Part shown: positions 1,531 to 63,274 of the stretch, piece after piece
Layout of the letters: every line of letters begins with the position of its first letter
Numbering within the stretch: the stretch's first letter is position 1
From: Sphingobium sp. TKS
GTDB lineage: Bacteria; Pseudomonadota; Alphaproteobacteria; Sphingomonadales; Sphingomonadaceae
Assembly (NCBI RefSeq): GCF_001563265.1
Contig: NZ_CP005084.1
Span: 442,001-506,000, forward strand
Length of the DNA: 64,000 nt
Direction of reading: 5' to 3'
Program-made: the position numbers and the translations under genes
Notes under the pieces: generated by a model
What the model saw: only the letters and a program-made list of their open reading frames with translations
Told to the model about the DNA's origin: nothing
Database searches by the model: none

Positions 1531-1715
1531 CCACCTGGTGGAAAGCTGGGTGTCACGTCACTCTGGTCTCGACCCATGCACGAACATGACGTAATCGCGG
1601 GAGCGCCGGCCGTTGGCCAGATGCACGGGATTACTGGAAGGTTGGTTGCCCCCCGATAAGATGAAGAATGGGCTCACGATTTTGGACCGGGCCCAGCATC
1701 ATATGGAGGACAACC

Positions 1716-2747
1716 GTGGATCAGCATATAGGACTCGACGTCTCCCTGAAAGACACTTCAGTATCGGTTCGTCAGGACGGCAAGCGCATTTGGCGTGGCA
1801 AGTGTGCATCCGACCCGAAGCTTCTCGCAGAAGTGATCCGAAAGCGCGCACCGAATGCAAAGCGCGTGGTATTTGAGACCGGACCTTTGTCGGTATGGTT
1901 TTTCCATGCCCTCACTGCGGAAGGTCTGCCGGCGATCTGTATAGATGCGCGCCATGCCAAGGCCGCTCTCGATATGGCTGCCAACAAGACCGATGCGAAC
2001 GACGCTGACGGCCTGGCCCATCTGGCTGAAGTTGGTTTCTATAGGGAGGTCCGCGTCAAAGGCTTCGACAGCATGTTGATGAGGACGCTGATCGCCGCCC
2101 GCCGTCAACTCATGAAGATGAGGGTGCAGATGTCGAACCAGATACGTGGGCTGATGAAGACGTTTGGGCTGGTAGTGCCCAAAGGCGCCGGCAGCGTCTT
2201 CGACCGCAATATAATTTCGCTTTTGGAAGGCGAGGACAATTTGGCACGCATCATCTTACCTCTACTTAAAGCCTGGGGAGATATCCGGCTTCGCGTTGCG
2301 GAATTGACCAAGCAACTGGTTGCGATGGCCGGCGCGGATCAACGTTGCCGCCTGCTCACGTCCGTGCCTGGTGTGGGTACGGTCACTGCCACGGCCTTCG
2401 CAGCAGCAGTGGAGGATTCGATCAACTTCAAAAACTCGCGCGCTGTAGGCGCCTGGGTCGGTCTGACCCCAAAGCGGTATCAATCGGGAGAGGTGGATTA
2501 TGAAGGTCATATCTCCCGTCGCGGCGACGCTAAGTTACGCACCCTCTTGTACGAGGCAGCCTCGGTCATTTTGAACAGGTCGACAGAGACGAACGCATTG
2601 CGTACCTGGGCCCTGGCGCTGAAGGAGCGGCTTGGTTTCAAACGAGCTGCAGTCGCGCTCGCGCGCAAACTGGCGGTAATCATGCACGCAATGCTGAAGA
2701 CAGGCGAGCTGTTTGATCCAAATGCTGGAGCCGCCGCGCCAACTTGA
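1716..2747 (+). CDS. IS110-family DEDD transposase, copy A
   Basis: The 343-residue protein catalyses excision and insertion of its element. The N-terminal DEDD (RuvC-like) domain shows 'HIGLDVSLKDTSVS', 'VVFETGP' and 'NKTDANDADGLAHLAE'. The C-terminal Tnp_20 domain shows 'LLTSVPGVGTVTATAFAAAV', 'GAWVGLTPKRYQSGEV' and 'ISRRGDAKLRTLLYEAASV'. Length and domain order are normal for an intact IS110-family enzyme. I place the start at the GTG at 1716, because GGAGGA lies five bases upstream and the protein then begins like copy B (VDQHIGLD against MDQYIGLD). In-frame codons further upstream are not conserved. Copy B at 61558 is a clear homologue, and the protein at 36833 is a more distant one. Confidence 0.93.
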   Translation: MDQHIGLDVSLKDTSVSVRQDGKRIWRGKCASDPKLLAEVIRKRAPNAKRVVFETGPLSVWFFHALTAEGLPAICIDARHAKAALDMAANKTDANDADGLAHLAEVGFYREVRVKGFDSMLMRTLIAARRQLMKMRVQMSNQIRGLMKTFGLVVPKGAGSVFDRNIISLLEGEDNLARIILPLLKAWGDIRLRVAELTKQLVAMAGADQRCRLLTSVPGVGTVTATAFAAAVEDSINFKNSRAVGAWVGLTPKRYQSGEVDYEGHISRRGDAKLRTLLYEAASVILNRSTETNALRTWALALKERLGFKRAAVALARKLAVIMHAMLKTGELFDPNAGAAAPT

Positions 2748-3043
2748 TGAACGACGGCACATTGTCACCAGCGCATCTAAAGTTTACCGATAGCGTCCTT
2801 TGAGGACGCGCCGAGCCGTCCCTGCCGGGGACGCGGCTGAGATCATTCCGCGAAGCGGGAAGCAACTGGCCTTTGGGAGCAGATTGCGTCACGAACATAG
2901 GAAGATCTTGCCTACGGAACCCATCCTGCGGCGATCAACTTGCATCGACCGCGTAGACGACCCTGTACCCGGCATACGCTTGGCAACAGTTATAAATGAA
3001 TGAACGAACGAATGATTTGGCTGGCTTGACAGAGGGGCGATTA
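2748..3043 (+). ncRNA. Putative guide (bridge/seek) RNA segment of IS1111-like copy A
   Basis: The 3' non-coding end of this element shares blocks with the corresponding ends of the other two copies: a 'GACCGCG' box at 2947-2953, then AGACGACCC at 2955-2963, then CCCGGCATACG. The 9-mer AGACGACCC recurs at the right end at 3043-3051, directly after the conserved GCGATTA. In the other copies the internal and terminal sequences change together. IS110-family enzymes are known to use an element-encoded guide RNA, and the 3' location is typical of the IS1111 subgroup. The RNA ends and fold are not determined; this is inference from sequence. Confidence 0.5.
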
Positions 3044-3160
3044 GACGACCCGCTCCGCGGGAGGGTCGCTTGGGGCGCGGTAGTGCGGTAAATATGGGCC
3101 TTTAGCGGGGCGAGGTTGCCCTCTGAGGTTGGAAGTTCCTTCAGCGAAGAGGAACTTACC

Positions 3161-35116: not shown

Positions 35117-35342
35117 AAGAAGATGCCCCGGCGCCTCGGCCGACGATCAAAGGATCGCAATATGGCTGAGGCAGCGGAAATCGGATAGCAGGAACCCGGC
35201 TTGCCCCGCAGGGCAAACCGAGTTCCCATCGCTGGGGCAACCTGAAATGACTGTTTTCGGGTGAGGCAAATCCCCACTGGAACGACCGGCTATCACGCTG
35301 AGAAATTCAACACCACGCAGGGAGCGATCGTGTCCCACCTGA
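35117..35342. other. Short stretch between TonB terminator and IS256, nothing recognised
   Basis: No gene or known repeat end could be assigned. It may be the end of a further insertion sequence, but I cannot name one. Confidence 0.4.
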
Positions 35343-36735
35343 TGGTGTAGGTTCGCCGGCGTAGCCTTGGCGATCTCCGGCCAAGCCGGGTTGATCATGC
35401 TGCCATGGCAGGCAACGTGATGATGGCATTATCGCTTAATCCCGAGACGCTCTCAAGTGTCATGTAGCGGGAGCGCTGGACCGCCCATTCATCATTTTGT
35501 TCGAGCAGGATAGCGCCGACGAGGCGGGTGATGGCCTCTTCATTGGGGAAGATGCCGACGACGTCGGTACGCCGCTTGATTTCGCCATTGAGCCGCTCGA
35601 TCGGATTATTGGAGTGTAATTTGGTGCGGTGTTGTGCGGGGAACGTCATGTAGGCCAGCACATCTTCCTCCGCGCTGTCCATCAGAGCAGCGAGTTTTGG
35701 CACGGTGGGGCGTAGCTGATCGGCAACGCTGCGCCACTGGGCTTTGGCGGTTTCCGGGGTGTCCTGAGCGAAGGCGGTGGCAATGAACGCCGACACGACC
35801 CGGCGACCGCTCTTGCCTGCATGGGCCAGGGCGTTGCGCATAAAATGGACGCGGCAGCGTTGCCAGGTTGCGCTGAACACTTTGGCGACGGATGCTTTGA
35901 TGCCCTCGTGAGCATCGGAGATGACCAGCTTCACGCCGCGCAAACCGCAGCGGGCAAGGCTGCGCAGGAAGTCGGTCCAGAAGACCTCGGCTTCGGAATG
36001 GCCGATCGCCATACCGAGGACTTCGCGCCGGCCGTCACTGTTGACGCCGACGGCGATGATGACGGCGACCGAGACGATTCGGCCGGCCCGCCGGACCTTT
36101 ATGTAGGTGGCGTCCATCCAGAGATAGGGCCAGTCGCCTTCGATCGGGCGATCGAGGAAGGCCTTCACACGTACATCGATCTCCTCGCACAGCCGGCTGA
36201 CCTGACTCTTCGAAATGCCGCTCATGCCCATGGCTTTGACCAGATCGTCCACCGACCGGGTCGATATGCCCTGAATATAGGCTTCCTGAATGACGGCGGT
36301 CAGGGCCTTCTCCGCTAGGCGGCGCGGTTCGAGAAAGCCGGGGAAATACGTGCCTTTGCGCAGCTTGGGGATCCGCAGCTCGACGGTGCCGGCGCGTGTC
36401 TCCCAATCCCGGTCGCGATAGCCGTTACGCTGTGCGAGACGCTCGGCATCCTTCTCGCCATAGGCAGCGCCTGTCAGGCCGCCCACTTCCAGTTCCATCA
36501 GCCGCTGCGCGGCAAAGCCGATCATGTCGCGCAGAAAATCGCCGTCCGCACTCTTCCCAACCAGGGTGTGCAGGTCCATCTTGTCAGCGGTCATCGGTGG
36601 TCTCCGTGAGTTGAGTGTTGCAACCCAAACTTACCGAAGTTCGCCGATGACCACCCGCGAAACTGACCGGCCGCTACAGCGCTTTATCGGTGAGCGCGCG
36701 TCCGGTCAGCTTCGCTACCGGCGGAAGCTACACCA
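35343..36735 (-). mobile_element. IS256-family insertion sequence
   Basis: The left end TGGTGTAGGTTCGCCGGC at 35343 onward and the right end, whose complement begins TGGTGTAGCTTCCGCCGG and lies at 36714-36735, form imperfect terminal inverted repeats around one transposase gene. The length of about 1.4 kb is normal for the IS256 family. The right end is seven bases from the left repeat of the next IS1111-like element. Confidence 0.75.
35395..36594 (-). CDS. IS256-family (mutator-type) transposase
   Basis: The 399-residue DDE transposase shows '[20 protein letters not shown]', '[20 protein letters not shown]', '[20 protein letters not shown]' with the first catalytic Asp, '[20 protein letters not shown]' with the second, '[20 protein letters not shown]', and the catalytic Glu near '[20 protein letters not shown]'. 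It is full length with no frameshift. The ATG at 36594 lies 140 bases inside the right terminal repeat. Confidence 0.95.
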
Positions 36736-36832
36736 CTTAGCGTAATCGCCACGCCCCATATCTCAACAACTGATGCAGAATGGGACTTCCGCTTCGACAC
36801 TTTATGCCGAAGCTTTGAACAAGGAGGATGCA

Positions 36833-37864
36833 ATGGCGGTGTTTGCAGCTCTGGATGTGTCGCAGGATCAGACGGCGATTTGCTTGGTGGACCAGGACGG
36901 CGCGATGCTGGCGGAGGCCAAGGTGCCGACCTGCCCGGAGGCGATTGCCAATTGGCTCGCGGAGCGATCAGATGGCCTTGAGCGGGTCGGCATGGAAACT
37001 GGCCCTCTGGCTGTCTGGCTTTGGAACGAATTGGTGGCGCGAGAGGTGCCGATCATCTGTCTGGACGCGCGCCATGCCAACGGTGTGTTGAAAATGATGC
37101 CCAACAAGACCGATCGTCATGATGCCCGTGGTCTGGCCCAGATCGTACGGACCGGCTGGTTCAAGGCTGTGCAGATCAAGAGCCACGACGCCTACGTCAA
37201 TCGGGCGATGCTGACAGCCCGGGAAGCGTTCGTCGGAATGCGGGTTCGGCTGGAGAACGAGGTCCGGGGGCTTTTGAAGACCTTTGGTGTTATGTTTGGC
37301 AAGCGTGTCGGTGGATTCAAGCGTCGGGCCGACGAAATCATCGCCAAGGAACTGCTGGTTGCCCCAGAACTCATCCCGATTTTTAAAACGCTGATACAGG
37401 CTCGCCGCGACATTCTGTCTCACATAGCAACACTCGACAAGCGGATCAGGGCGATCGCCAAGCGGCATGCGACGGTCAGATTGTTAATGACCGCCCCCGG
37501 TGTAGGACCGATCACAGCGATGTCCGTAGTAGCAGCCTTCGATGATGCCGCCCGGTTCCGACGGTCGTCCGGCGCCGGTGCCTACCTCGGGCTGACGCCA
37601 AGGCGCTACGAGTCTGGCGAGATTAGCCGGAACGGTCGCATCTCGAAACGCGGGGATGGGTTCACGCGGAAATGCCTGTTCGAGGCGGCGAATGCGATCG
37701 TCTGTCGGGACCTTGGTGGCCCACGCCTACGCAGCTGGGCCAAAGCTATCGCCGAAAGAACAGGACCCCGGAAAGCCAAGGTGGCTCTGGCGCGGAAACT
37801 TGCTGTAACATTGCATGCGATGTGGCGCACTAACACGCCCTTCCGGGAGCCGGCGATGGCATAG
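36833..37864 (+). CDS. IS110-family DEDD transposase, copy C
   Basis: The 343-residue transposase has 'VFAALDVSQDQTAICLVDQD', 'GMETGPLAVWLWNELV', 'NKTDRHDARGLAQIVRTGWF', 'MTAPGVGPITAMSVVAAFDD', 'GAYLGLTPRRYESGEISRNG' and 'ISKRGDGFTRKCLFEAANAI'. It is more distant from copies A and B than they are from each other, but identical in length and layout. AAGGAGG five bases before the ATG at 36833 fixes the start; a frame opening at 36773 is not needed. Confidence 0.93.
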   Translation: MAVFAALDVSQDQTAICLVDQDGAMLAEAKVPTCPEAIANWLAERSDGLERVGMETGPLAVWLWNELVAREVPIICLDARHANGVLKMMPNKTDRHDARGLAQIVRTGWFKAVQIKSHDAYVNRAMLTAREAFVGMRVRLENEVRGLLKTFGVMFGKRVGGFKRRADEIIAKELLVAPELIPIFKTLIQARRDILSHIATLDKRIRAIAKRHATVRLLMTAPGVGPITAMSVVAAFDDAARFRRSSGAGAYLGLTPRRYESGEISRNGRISKRGDGFTRKCLFEAANAIVCRDLGGPRLRSWAKAIAERTGPRKAKVALARKLAVTLHAMWRTNTPFREPAMA

Positions 37865-38096
37865 ATCTCGCAACTGAAACGACACTGATCATCAGCACAA
37901 CGGAATGCGTCCAGCCGGGACGCGCGGCGAGGGTGAGATCGCTCCCAGGTTAGCGGCAATGACCGCGCACACCACTTCGATCCACCCGACCTGGAACGCA
38001 AACGTGCGGCACCCGACGCGGTGACCGCGGAGAGAACCCAAGAGCCCGGCACGCAGGATGGATCGCTGAGAGATCAGCACTTGACCAAGGCGATTA
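37865..38096 (+). ncRNA. Putative guide (bridge/seek) RNA segment of IS1111-like copy C
   Basis: The 3' non-coding segment contains the conserved 'GACCGCG' box followed by AGAGAACCC at 38031-38039 and CCCGGCACG. The right end of the element has AGAGAACC at 38096-38103. In copies A and B both internal and terminal sequences differ at the same positions. This supports, but does not prove, a guide RNA. Confidence 0.45.
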
Positions 38097-38299
38097 GAGA
38101 ACCTCCCGGGACACAACCCAGGGAGCGGCAGTTAGCTGGCTGCCTTCTCCAAAGCCGACAGTCGCGAATGTTCTAATTGATATTCGCATCGCGATTCCTG
38201 TTTATCCGTGCCCGATTTCCAAATGTTGTCTTCGAGGTCGTCGGACGGCTGGGAGAGCCTTTCGTCCGGGCATGGCTGATCGGGATCGGGAGCGACGGG

Positions 38300-38495
38300 T
38301 CAGACCCAGCGGCACTCGGTCTCGTTCAACCAAACGGAATACAGTAATGCAGCCAGCTTACGAGCAACCGCGACCTTGGCCCGCCGTGGACCTTTGGCTT
38401 CGGCTATTTTCCTGCCCCAACTCTGAATCGCACAGGGTCTTTTGACCCGGGTTAAGATGATGTTGGCTGCCCCGTACAGCGATCGCCGGCCCTGG
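38300..38495 (-). pseudogene. IS110-family transposase, C-terminal remnant
   Basis: On the minus strand the frame reads 'YGAANIILTRVKRPCAIQSW', 'GRKIAEAKGPRRAKVAVARK' and 'LAALLYSVWLNETECRWV' to a stop at 38300. This matches the last 65 or so residues of IS110/IS902-type transposases. The rest is missing. It is distinct from the three intact copies. Confidence 0.6.
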
Positions 38496-38589
38496 AGATA
38501 TGCCCCTGCGTATCGGGTTCACCTGACTGACTTCGGCGTGGAACGAGGCCAGCATAGGCGCCAGCATCTTCGCTCTGGCCGGGAGTTTA

Positions 38590-61246: not shown

Positions 61247-61557
61247 TTCCAAAGCCTATGACCCGCCTGCGCCGGACAGGCAAGAAAGCAATGCTATGGT
61301 GAGGGAGAAAGCAGAGAGACCTCGCAAAGCACGGTCAGCTTAACCTTTGATAACAAAGCGGTTCAGCCTGGGCCCATGCGCGAGGTGGAATAAGGCCAGG
61401 CAACACAAAGATTTGAGGAGACATGGGGTAATCGCGGAGCGAGTCGCCCATCCCCTTGAGCAGCAAGCGCGGGACGACAGGGTGGTTGCCCCCCGATAAG
61501 ATGGAGAAACGGGCTCACGATTTTGGACCGGGCCCAAACATCGCACGGAGAGCAACC

Positions 61558-62583
61558 ATGGATCAGTATATCGGCCTCGATGTTTCATTGAAAGATACCG
61601 CGATCTCGATCCGGCAGGACGGAAAGCGGATTTGGCGCGGCAAAGCTCCTTCGGATCCGAAGATTTTGGCAGAGGCGATCCGCAAGCATGCCCCGTCCGC
61701 CCGACGAGTGGTGTTCGAGACAGGGCCATTATCGACATGGTTCTTTCACGCGTTGACGGCCGAAGGGGTCCCCGCGATCTGCATTGAAGCGCGCCACGCG
61801 CAGAAGATATTGGATGAAACGCTCAATAAAACTGATGCCAACGACGCCGATGGCCTGGCTCAGCTAGCCGAGGCGGGATTTTACAAGGAAGTCCGCGTAA
61901 AGTCCTTTGACGCCATGCTAACCCGCACGCTCGCAGGCGCGCGCGAGCAACTCATTCGCATCTCGACCAAGCTTGGCAATCAGATTCGTGGCGTCATGAA
62001 GACATTTGGTCTCATCGTCCCCAAGGGCGGCGGCCGCGTGTTCGAGGGACATGTTCGGGAACTTTTGGAGAAGGAAGATGGCCTGGCGAGGATCATATTG
62101 CCCCTGCTCGAAGCATGGCGCGACATCCGCAAGCAAGCTGCCGTTCTGACTCGTTATTTACTGGCCATGGCGAGAAAAAGCCGCGAGGCACAGCTATTGA
62201 TGACGATCCCGGGTGTCGGTTCTGCCACGGCCGTCTCCTATCTCGTTGCCATTGAAGACCCTGATAACTTCGGTAAGTCGCGTTCAGTGGGGGCATGGCT
62301 AGGTCTTACCACACGCCGCTATCAGTCTGGTGAGGTCGATCGAAATGGTCACATTTCGAAAAGAGGCGACAATTATCTGCGCGGGCTGCTCTATGAAGCG
62401 GCAGTAGCGCTCCTTACCCGAACCAGGAGTGAAAGCAGCCTGAAAGATTGGGGGCTCGGCTTGTGTGAACGGTTGGGCTTCAAGTGCGCTGCTGTCGCCG
62501 TAGCGCGCAAACTCGCGGTCATCATGCATAGCATGCTCAAAACGGGAGAAGTCTTCAACACATCGGCCGGCGCCTCCGCATAA
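61558..62583 (+). CDS. IS110-family DEDD transposase, copy B
   Basis: The 341-residue transposase shows 'MDQYIGLDVSLKDTAISIRQ', 'VVFETGPLSTWFFHALTAEG', 'NKTDANDADGLAQLAEAGFY', 'LLMTIPGVGSATAVSYLVAI', 'GAWLGLTTRRYQSGEVDRNG' and 'HISKRGDNYLRGLLYEAAVA'. It is a close homologue of the enzyme at 1716 along the whole length. The ATG at 61558 follows CGGAGAG and matches the start of copy A; the longer frame from 61456 covers the left end of the element. Confidence 0.94.
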   Translation: MDQYIGLDVSLKDTAISIRQDGKRIWRGKAPSDPKILAEAIRKHAPSARRVVFETGPLSTWFFHALTAEGVPAICIEARHAQKILDETLNKTDANDADGLAQLAEAGFYKEVRVKSFDAMLTRTLAGAREQLIRISTKLGNQIRGVMKTFGLIVPKGGGRVFEGHVRELLEKEDGLARIILPLLEAWRDIRKQAAVLTRYLLAMARKSREAQLLMTIPGVGSATAVSYLVAIEDPDNFGKSRSVGAWLGLTTRRYQSGEVDRNGHISKRGDNYLRGLLYEAAVALLTRTRSESSLKDWGLGLCERLGFKCAAVAVARKLAVIMHSMLKTGEVFNTSAGASA

Positions 62584-62915
62584 CGGGAGCCTGCCAGGCT
62601 ACCACTCTCAGCGCGTCGTCAGCTGACGCGTCGAGGCGTCCCTGCCGGGGACGTGGGTCAGGCCATTCCGCTCATACTGGCTGCAGCTCGCTAGAGACTG
62701 CGTAGGAGACATAGGAAGGCCTCGCTCGCGAAGACCCATGATGCGGCGGCTCCATGCCGACCGCGAAGACAACCCTGCTCCCGGCATACGATTATCCTCG
62801 CGCAAACAAACGACAGACTGAGACAATTGATACGATAGATTGACCGTCGCGCTGCAAACATCTGCGCGGGACGATCCTCTGTTTCCAAACCGCCTTGACG
62901 AATGAAATGCGATTA
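62584..62915 (+). ncRNA. Putative guide (bridge/seek) RNA segment of IS1111-like copy B
   Basis: The 3' non-coding segment contains 'GACCGCG', then AGACAACCC at 62767-62775, then CCCGGCATACG. The right end has AGACAACCC at 62915-62923. The internal and terminal 9-mers agree with each other and differ from copy A (AGACGACCC) at the same position. The limits of the RNA are not known. Confidence 0.5.
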
Positions 62916-62926
62916 GACAACCCGTT

Positions 62927-63274
62927 ATGACCATTCGCAAATCCATTCTCGGCATCGCTCTTGCCGCCGCCACCCTCTCGGCTGCCGTGCCGGCGACTTC
63001 GTTCGCCCATGACGGCGATCGTGGCTGGAGCCGCTATGATCGCCATGAGCGGGTTCGCTATTCTGATCGCCGCGACTATCGCGGCTATCGCGATGATCGC
63101 GGTTATCGCTGCCGCAAGTCGGGCGGGACCACCGGCCTGCTGCTCGGCGGCGTAGCCGGCGCGCTTCTGGGCCGCGCCGTCGATACGCGAGGCGACCGCG
63201 CACCGGGCACCATCATCGGCGCTGGCGCCGGAGCGCTGGCCGGCCGCGCCATCGATCGCAATTCGCGCTGCTAA
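62927..63274 (+). CDS. Secreted glycine-zipper 2TM-type protein
   Basis: The 115-residue protein has a signal peptide ending 'PATSFAH', an Arg/Tyr/Asp-rich stretch ('YSDRRDYRGYRDDRGYRC') and a glycine-zipper segment, 'TTGLLLGGVAGALLGRAVDT' and 'GTIIGAGAGALAGRAIDRNS'. Such proteins associate with the envelope; the role is unknown. Its start codon lies next to the right end of an IS1111-like element, and I see no clear ribosome binding site between them, so expression may depend on the insertion sequence. Confidence 0.82.
   Translation: MTIRKSILGIALAAATLSAAVPATSFAHDGDRGWSRYDRHERVRYSDRRDYRGYRDDRGYRCRKSGGTTGLLLGGVAGALLGRAVDTRGDRAPGTIIGAGAGALAGRAIDRNSRC

Follow-up and report, generated by a model that had tools for sequence, protein, structure and literature searches.

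The guide RNAs of IS1111 elements were published in 2024 (PMC11187229, PMC11208160). Siddiquee et al. 2024 described that in IS1111 the match to the top strand precedes, on the 5' side, the one to the bottom strand (PMC11187229), and Durrant et al. 2024 predicted donor-binding nucleotides in IS1111 by inspection (PMC11208160). Since such RNAs are already known, the three elements A, B and C analysed here, which we found in a window of 64,000 nt from Sphingobium sp. TKS (contig NZ_CP005084.1, positions 442,001 to 506,000), are ordinary members of a known system. What the sequence comparison adds is support for the donor half of the IS1111 RNA, predicted in one of the two papers and left open in the other. 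Among the matches listed for titles and abstract starts of open-licence literature there was nothing on these elements and no survey of IS1111 donor guides.

The described systems share much of their anatomy with A, B and C. The seekRNA elements ISEc11, ISPa11, ISKpn4 and ISPst6 likewise carry a DEDD transposase with PF02371, subterminal inverted repeats (sTIR) and a non-coding segment downstream of tnp in which the top-strand match lies 5' of the bottom-strand match, and they use a specific insertion site, with palindromic targets in some members (PMC11187229). The matches described for the seekRNA are to the target only, with the role of an RNA of ~150 nt left open, whereas in the elements studied here two predicted end guides follow 3' of the target loop (PMC11187229). 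The IS621 bridge RNA of the IS110 group resembles the RNA predicted here in its two internal loops, in the way left and right target guides (LTG, RTG) and left and right donor guides (LDG, RDG) meet at the core, and in the assignment of the guides to bottom and top strand (PMC11208160). It differs in its location at the left end, compared to the right end in A, B and C, and the order within the loops (RTG-LTG and RDG-LDG in A, B and C) is the reverse of IS621; furthermore, IS621 has a core dinucleotide, whereas A, B and C have one core base equal at both ends and a longer sTIR (PMC11208160). The IS1111 predictions of Durrant et al. (Fig. 6d and Extended Data Fig. 10c) also place target and donor complementarity in loops, but were made by inspecting six elements from the two groups by hand, in contrast to the statistics over many elements used here; they show the donor nucleotides of many IS1111 members in a multi-loop, while our consensus has a simple internal loop (PMC11208160).

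The three IS110-family elements of IS1111 type extend from 1585 to 3048 (A), 61422 to 62920 (B) and 36736 to 38101 (C). Their transposases, encoded on the plus strand at 1716..2747 (A), 61558..62583 (B) and 36833..37864 (C), all scored above the curated cut-offs for PF01548, PF02371 and NF033542 in a profile search and match NF033542 over its full length (248.8 bits for A). The frame is open from ATG 1668 in A, where a start at GTG 1716 agrees with relatives, and from ATG 36773 in C. With 343, 341 and 343 aa (A, B and C, respectively) the proteins lie within the 330-350 aa given for the IS1111 group, which is further marked by a long non-coding region downstream of tnp (PMC11187229); here the stretch from the transposase stop to the right sTIR measures 289, 325 and 225 nt. 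The motif GL-P----S/TG, which marks the C-terminal part of IS110/IS1111 transposases (PMC11187229), is present as GLTPKRYQSG in A and GLTPRRYESG in C, and only in part as GLTTRRYQSG in B, where T replaces P. The sTIR TAATCGC/GCGATTA comprise 7 bp in A and B and 8 bp in C, in the range of 7-17 bp that defines the group (PMC11208160). We base the IS1111-group assignment on the sTIR, the downstream non-coding region and the transposase length together with the NF033542 match. Outside the sTIR we found a left extension of 7 nt, the first base of which is the core C, and a right extension of 5 nt followed by the core C (GACGA, GACAA and GAGAA in A, B and C), a layout also seen in a fourth element, D, discussed below. 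In IS4321/IS5075 the extensions outside the sTIR are said by Partridge and Hall 2003 to be 7 bp (left) and 3 bp (right), a 7/3 layout that differs from the 7/5 found here; as the papers define the IS1111 group by sTIR and transposase, we take the 7/5 extensions as a layout variant. All four elements (A to D) have a TTGAC ahead of the right sTIR, and because a convincing -10 was not seen by eye we do not claim a circle-junction promoter.

Behind each transposase gene lies a segment with bridge RNA/seekRNA anatomy. An earlier note on this DNA had reported that a short sequence within this segment recurs at the right end of the same element, and the repeats proved exact in position: AGACGACCC at 2955 and 3043 in A, AGACAACCC at 62767 and 62915 in B and AGAGAACC at 38031 and 38096 in C, the internal copy in each case preceded by GACCGCG with 1 nt in between. 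The common architecture it described, with transposase, non-coding segment and GCGATTA, is present as well, except that GCGATTA, regarded there as the end, is the right sTIR and the element continues for 5 nt to the core C. The 9-mer is a real repeat, but the functional unit looks to be 7 nt long (A + 5 nt + core C); in A and B the final two matching positions of the 9-mer already belong to the right flank. When the non-coding segment of each element was resampled with a first-order Markov model, the right-end oligomer occurred by chance in 68, 22 and 178 of 20,000 cases (A, B and C), and in the window each of these oligomers is present exactly twice on the plus strand, that of A also twice on the minus strand. 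Overlooked in the earlier note was an internal 9-mer that repeats the left flank together with the left end (CACGAACAT at 2890 in A, AGGAGACAT at 62704 in B, ACACCACTT at 37969 in C), which is as striking as the right repeat (47, 19 and 13 of 20,000 resamples). The note also missed two predicted guides, one for the right target, reverse-complementary to the right flank, and a weaker one for the right donor. The predicted guide order is 5'-RTG-LTG-RDG-LDG-3' in A, B and C, and RTG lies 5' of LTG in A, B, C, D and their kin, which is the IS1111 order of top-strand match before bottom-strand match. A scan of the window against Rfam, which may hold no IS110/IS1111 bridge RNA, yielded 0 matches at gathering thresholds.

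In A the left target CACGAA (1579..1584, plus strand, as are all features of A, B and C) lies in the flank and equals the internal left target guide; it is followed by the left end (1585..1598) with the core C, the extension ATGACG and the left sTIR TAATCGC (1592-1598). The non-coding segment (2748..3036) contains a bridge RNA/seekRNA-like core at approximately 2812-2978, as suggested by the consensus fold of 25 elements with its compensatory changes. Within it we predict a right target guide AGCGGG (2854..2859, reverse complement of CCCGCT at 3049-3054), a left target guide CACGAAC (2890..2896, identical to 1579-1585), a weak putative right donor guide CCCAT (2920..2924) that fits the left end only in part, and the left donor guide AGACGAC, part of the internal 9-mer (2955..2961, identical to 3043-3049). 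The right end (3037..3049) consists of the sTIR GCGATTA (3037-3043), GACGA and the core C (3049). Three uninterrupted copies of the empty target, ACGAACCCGCT..GCGGG, exist in the same genome, and these three ACGAACCCGCT sites support the core and target of A. The likely target is a REP-like palindrome.

Element B follows the same plan, with the putative left target AGGAGA at 61416..61421, the left end CATGGGG plus sTIR TAATCGC at 61422..61435, a non-coding segment at 62584..62908 with the predicted guide RNA (core approximately 62624-62790), and the right sTIR GCGATTA, GACAA and core C at 62909..62921. The predicted guides are TCATACTGG for the right target (62672..62680; imperfect and partly assigned by eye, TCATA pairing with TATGA at 62926-62930), AGGAGAC for the left target (62704..62710, identical to 61416-61422), CCCATG for the right donor (62735..62740, reverse complement of CATGGG in the left end) and AGACAAC for the left donor (62767..62773, identical to 62915-62921). 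An empty site for the target of B, sought with one strict pattern, was found in 0 of 100 relatives. By eye, B (61416-62940) splits a ribosome-binding-like AGGAGA from the ATG of a small ORF at 62927, and since it parts the two, the insertion may silence or re-drive that ORF.

Element C is located in an apparent terminal inverted repeat of an IS256-family element, which is its likely target. The left target ACACCA (36730..36735) is followed by the left end CTTAGCG with sTIR TAATCGC (36736..36749), and the right sTIR GCGATTA, GAGAA and core C lie at 38090..38102. In the non-coding segment (37865..38089), which contains the predicted guide RNA, we assign the right target guide TCCCAGG (37943..37949, 6/7 pairs with CCCGGGA at 38105-38111, by eye), the left target guide ACACCAC (37969..37975, identical to 36730-36736), a weak putative right donor guide CGCAAA (37997..38002), matched by the left end in part, and the left donor guide AGAGAAC (38031..38037, identical to 38096-38102). 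The host element carries an IS256-family (Mutator-type) transposase on the minus strand (35395..36594; PF00872, 400.8 bits), and its distal end, CTACACCATCAGGTGGGACAC on the minus strand at 35330..35350, is the counterpart of the target of C. Six of the eight C-type copies compared lie in an apparent IS256-family terminal repeat (the copy in the window, L118, L119, L122, L123 and L124), L125 not being among the eight; the evidence consists of annotated IS256 transposases beside L118 and L119 and PF00872 beside C, while L122, L123 and L124 were placed in an IS256-type repeat by flank similarity. In L120 the left guide differs, yet matches its own flank, and in the compared part of L121 a left end could not be recognised. 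Plasmid relatives in Cereibacter, Phaeobacter, Sinorhizobium and Rhizobium show the same insertion, at either end of an IS256-family host. The donor guide GAGAAC is shared by the kin of C, with L119 off by one base (GAGAAT vs GAGAAA). Relatives of C were not found in viral contigs and, at E 1e-100 in 298 genomes of the family, occurred in its own genome only, where a search for an exact empty copy of its target yielded none. Just downstream of C, at 38333-38574 on the minus strand, remnants of another IS110-family transposase are present (L020, L021).

For the co-variation analysis a set of elements related to A and B was compiled from the best 80 of 150 homologous loci (species genomes), 6 loci from the family and 6 own copies (92 in total). 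Left and right ends were obtained for 63 of the 92, and 55 were kept after 8 had been dropped for missing, wrong or cut ends or for lack of an LDG match (L086, L093, L097, L107, L070, L094, L067 and L076); 41 were left after de-duplication at 95%, 40 of them with full flanks. The set includes C (L003) and excludes D. The transposase tree comprises 53 proteins, two with several stops having been left out, and 52 elements entered the RTG and tree-change tests. An unbiased scan of 40 elements (effective number 12.7), in which RNA columns were paired with terminal positions (7,826 pairs), recovered LTG as identity with the left flank L-6..L-2 (kappa 0.93-1.00), LDG as identity with the right end at R-3 and R-2 (kappa 1.00 and 0.91, within the ten strongest of the 7,826 pairs), RTG as complement of the right flank R+1..R+4 (0.66-0.72) and RDG as a weaker complement of the left end at L+5 (0.53). 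Weighted single-column permutations reached the observed value in 0-30 of 2,000 cases for the guide columns. High scan values occur outside the guides too, mostly at near-invariant positions, a variable exception being column 102 with R+3 (0.82).

The target guides track the flanks closely. LTG fits its own left terminus better than others (0.875 vs 0.508, 0/20,000 permutations, 22 distinct left termini), its hexamer equals the flank in 47/52 elements, 16 changes are placed on the transposase tree, and the outer edge of the signal is sharp (38/40 at L-6, 6/40 at L-7). In four of the five hexamer mismatches (L024, L038, L041 and L068) a guide G faces a flank A, a would-be G-T wobble. RTG matches its own right flank at 6.42 of 7 positions vs 4.44 for others (52 elements, 25 distinct, 0/20,000), and in the sisters L071 and L072 guide and right flank change together (GCTCGT/ACGAGC and GCTTGT/ACAAGC). 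The right target guide of L084 does not fit its own right flank. In L084 (1501-2505 plus flanks) this guide is similar to the one in L085, and the right flank is the one of L083; L084 possibly arose by recombination between elements.

At the right end, the earlier note had proposed that the internal sequence changes in step with the terminus. On the three elements alone this was thin, with only two positions differing, but it holds in many homologues: in the homologue alignment that the note had suggested, the internal hexamer equals the right-end hexamer in 36/40 non-redundant elements, with one-base mismatches in 4/40 (L050, L079, L089 and L104). LDG fits its own end at 0.983 vs 0.810 for others (861/20,000 permutations, a test floored at approximately 1/24 because only four distinct right-end hexamers exist in the A/B set). 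On supported branches there are 3 independent pairs, concordant in 2.9 on average and opposed in 0. The distant relatives L129 and L130 carry GACAAC and L131 GAGAAGC at both guide and end; L128 has AAAGGACC against AAAGGGCC, L127 has GACAAC against GACGAC, and L126 gave no ends. RDG shows a weak signal in this set (0.693 vs 0.590, 540/20,000), the fit being good in B and partial in A and C.

A consensus fold of 25 elements, A and B included and C not, shows two internal loops with guides on both strands, RTG on the 5' and LTG on the 3' strand of the first and RDG on the 5' and LDG on the 3' strand of the second. Of its 24 pairs 12 are changed on both sides, 98.5% of cells are paired, none of 500 shuffles reaches the consensus pairing and slid partners drop pairing to 31-47%. 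The heptamer GACCGCG belongs to the inner stem of the donor loop, on its 3' arm. When the sequences are folded one by one, stability is unremarkable in A, C and D (z -0.04, -0.79 and -1.73) and unusually high only in B (z -2.77).

We are highly confident that A, B and C are of IS1111 type and that their 3' segment most likely encodes a two-loop bridge RNA (seekRNA) with target and donor guides. The observations behind this are the anatomy and conservation of the segment, its compensatory structure, the co-variation of the guides with flanks and ends, and the empty target sites of A and D. We infer that the segment is transcribed, that the RNA binds the protein and pairs with DNA, and that a circle forms and reacts. 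In the second loop the right donor guide on the 5' strand would pair with the left end of the element and the left donor guide (the 9-mer) on the 3' strand with the right end, the two ends abutting in the excised circle; at the point where the guides come together, target and donor would share a core base (C in all three elements), and there the transposase would carry out the recombination between them. The internal 9-mer is, as far as the sequences allow a judgement, most likely the left donor guide, which repeats the right end up to the one-base core.

A second group of IS1111-type elements, defined by other, longer end repeats and sampled from 224 genomes of the phylum, offers many more right ends. 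A total of 70 loci was taken (30 plus 40 further stretches), 49 with sTIR of at least 9 bp; 37 fitted the chosen anchors, 25 were left after de-duplication, and LDG could be anchored in 24. In the 25 non-redundant elements LTG, RTG and LDG each track the termini (0/20,000 permutations), and the first base of the core is equal at both ends in 23/25. Compared against 20 distinct right ends, LDG matches its own at 6.20 of 7 positions vs 5.01 for others (0/20,000). The match per position is 21, 22, 22, 21, 19, 21 and then 9 of 24 and hence stops after the core; in this count the last of two matches was taken, which is the worse one in L155 and L162. For RDG a first test with 9-mers in 16 elements was negative (8,029/20,000). 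The positive test considered the two variable bases before CAT in the larger set of 25, the 16 included, and gave 31/44 vs 20.3 expected by permutation (1/20,000, 22 scored); it is weaker than the other tests, since it was chosen after looking at the sequences.

These data bear on the view that only the target loop functions in IS1111, that the donor loop resembles the ends for example by shared descent, and that the protein alone reads the ends. For ISEc11 a short seekRNA matching the target is described as sufficient, with the role of the long form left open (PMC11187229), and independent changes are few in both sets. For each letter, independent pairs of the second group yield 0-3 concordant changes, and for several letters the pairs with unchanged end are at least equally numerous; as these pairs are few and guide-only differences occur, the counts by themselves leave room for shared descent. 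Against this stand the tracking of the 20 distinct right ends by LDG and of the left end by RDG, as well as the pairs that differ in both LDG and end, which change in the same direction almost without exception in both sets, few as they are and many as are the second-group pairs with unchanged end. We therefore regard a role of the target loop alone as rather improbable.

The 9-mer could instead be a second target guide, matching a right flank that happens to contain the last bases of the element. In A and B its identity continues beyond the core for 2 nt of the right flank, R+1 and R+2 agree mildly with the 9-mer in the A/B set (10 and 26 of 2,000 shuffles), and the matches described for the seekRNA are those to the target (PMC11187229). 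However, the positions that vary step-wise, R-3 and R-2, lie inside the element, the second-group match drops to 9/24 directly after the core, and a separate right target guide of opposite sense tracks the flank, which renders a second target guide very improbable. The earlier note had left open whether the guide was for donor or target; its guide reading is supported, and the co-varying R-3 and R-2 together with the tracked second-group ends, where the match stops at the core, argue for a donor guide. Short direct repeats near ends are common and A and C, folded singly, show no unusual stability, but that the repeats are protein-binding sites or remnants of end duplication without any RNA is hardly credible, as they change with host-derived flanks, both as identical and as reverse-complementary copies, and occupy loops of a fold in which 12 pairs are changed on both sides.

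Returning to the donor-guide reading, we consider it probable that IS1111 reads both of its own ends with RNA: in separate sets of elements the donor loop, located in the 3' half of the long seekRNA, tracks the right end through LDG and the left end through RDG, stops at the core and would fill the part left open in the seekRNA paper, in combination with natural retargeting and specialisation on the ends of mobile elements, other IS1111 included. The two founding papers disagree about the donor half of the RNA, to which the 9-mer draws attention. As guides and ends co-vary naturally in both sets, the donor loop can be tested directly, with guide/end pairs already available for swaps. For IS1111 elements yet to be characterised, it should become possible to read targets and ends from sequence.

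Several relatives of A and B are IS1111 elements preying on IS1111. They sit inside the left end of a second-group IS1111-type element, between its 7-nt extension and its sTIR, in 7/54 elements by a strict score (loci including L022, L040, L042, L050, L055, L064 and L103). The host element shows the extension TGATGGG or similar and an sTIR GTGGACG.., and the guides of the inserted elements fit the junction. A location of these relatives at the junction of the prey with its chromosomal target was considered and rejected, TGATGGG being the prey's own left extension.

The fourth IS1111-type element, D, is present in three copies (C1:517593, 1390402 and 1807832), all behind one palindrome (TTTCCAAACAGACTCT; loci L004, L005, L006 and L111-L116). 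Searched for in the same way as those of C, relatives of D were found in its own genome only, at E 1e-110. The donor guide GAGAAG equals the right end in two of the three copies, L005 differing at the core. The target palindrome of D is a REP-like repeat family of this genome, in which six uninterrupted copies persist. Two empty D-target palindromes lie 68 bp apart in inverted orientation.
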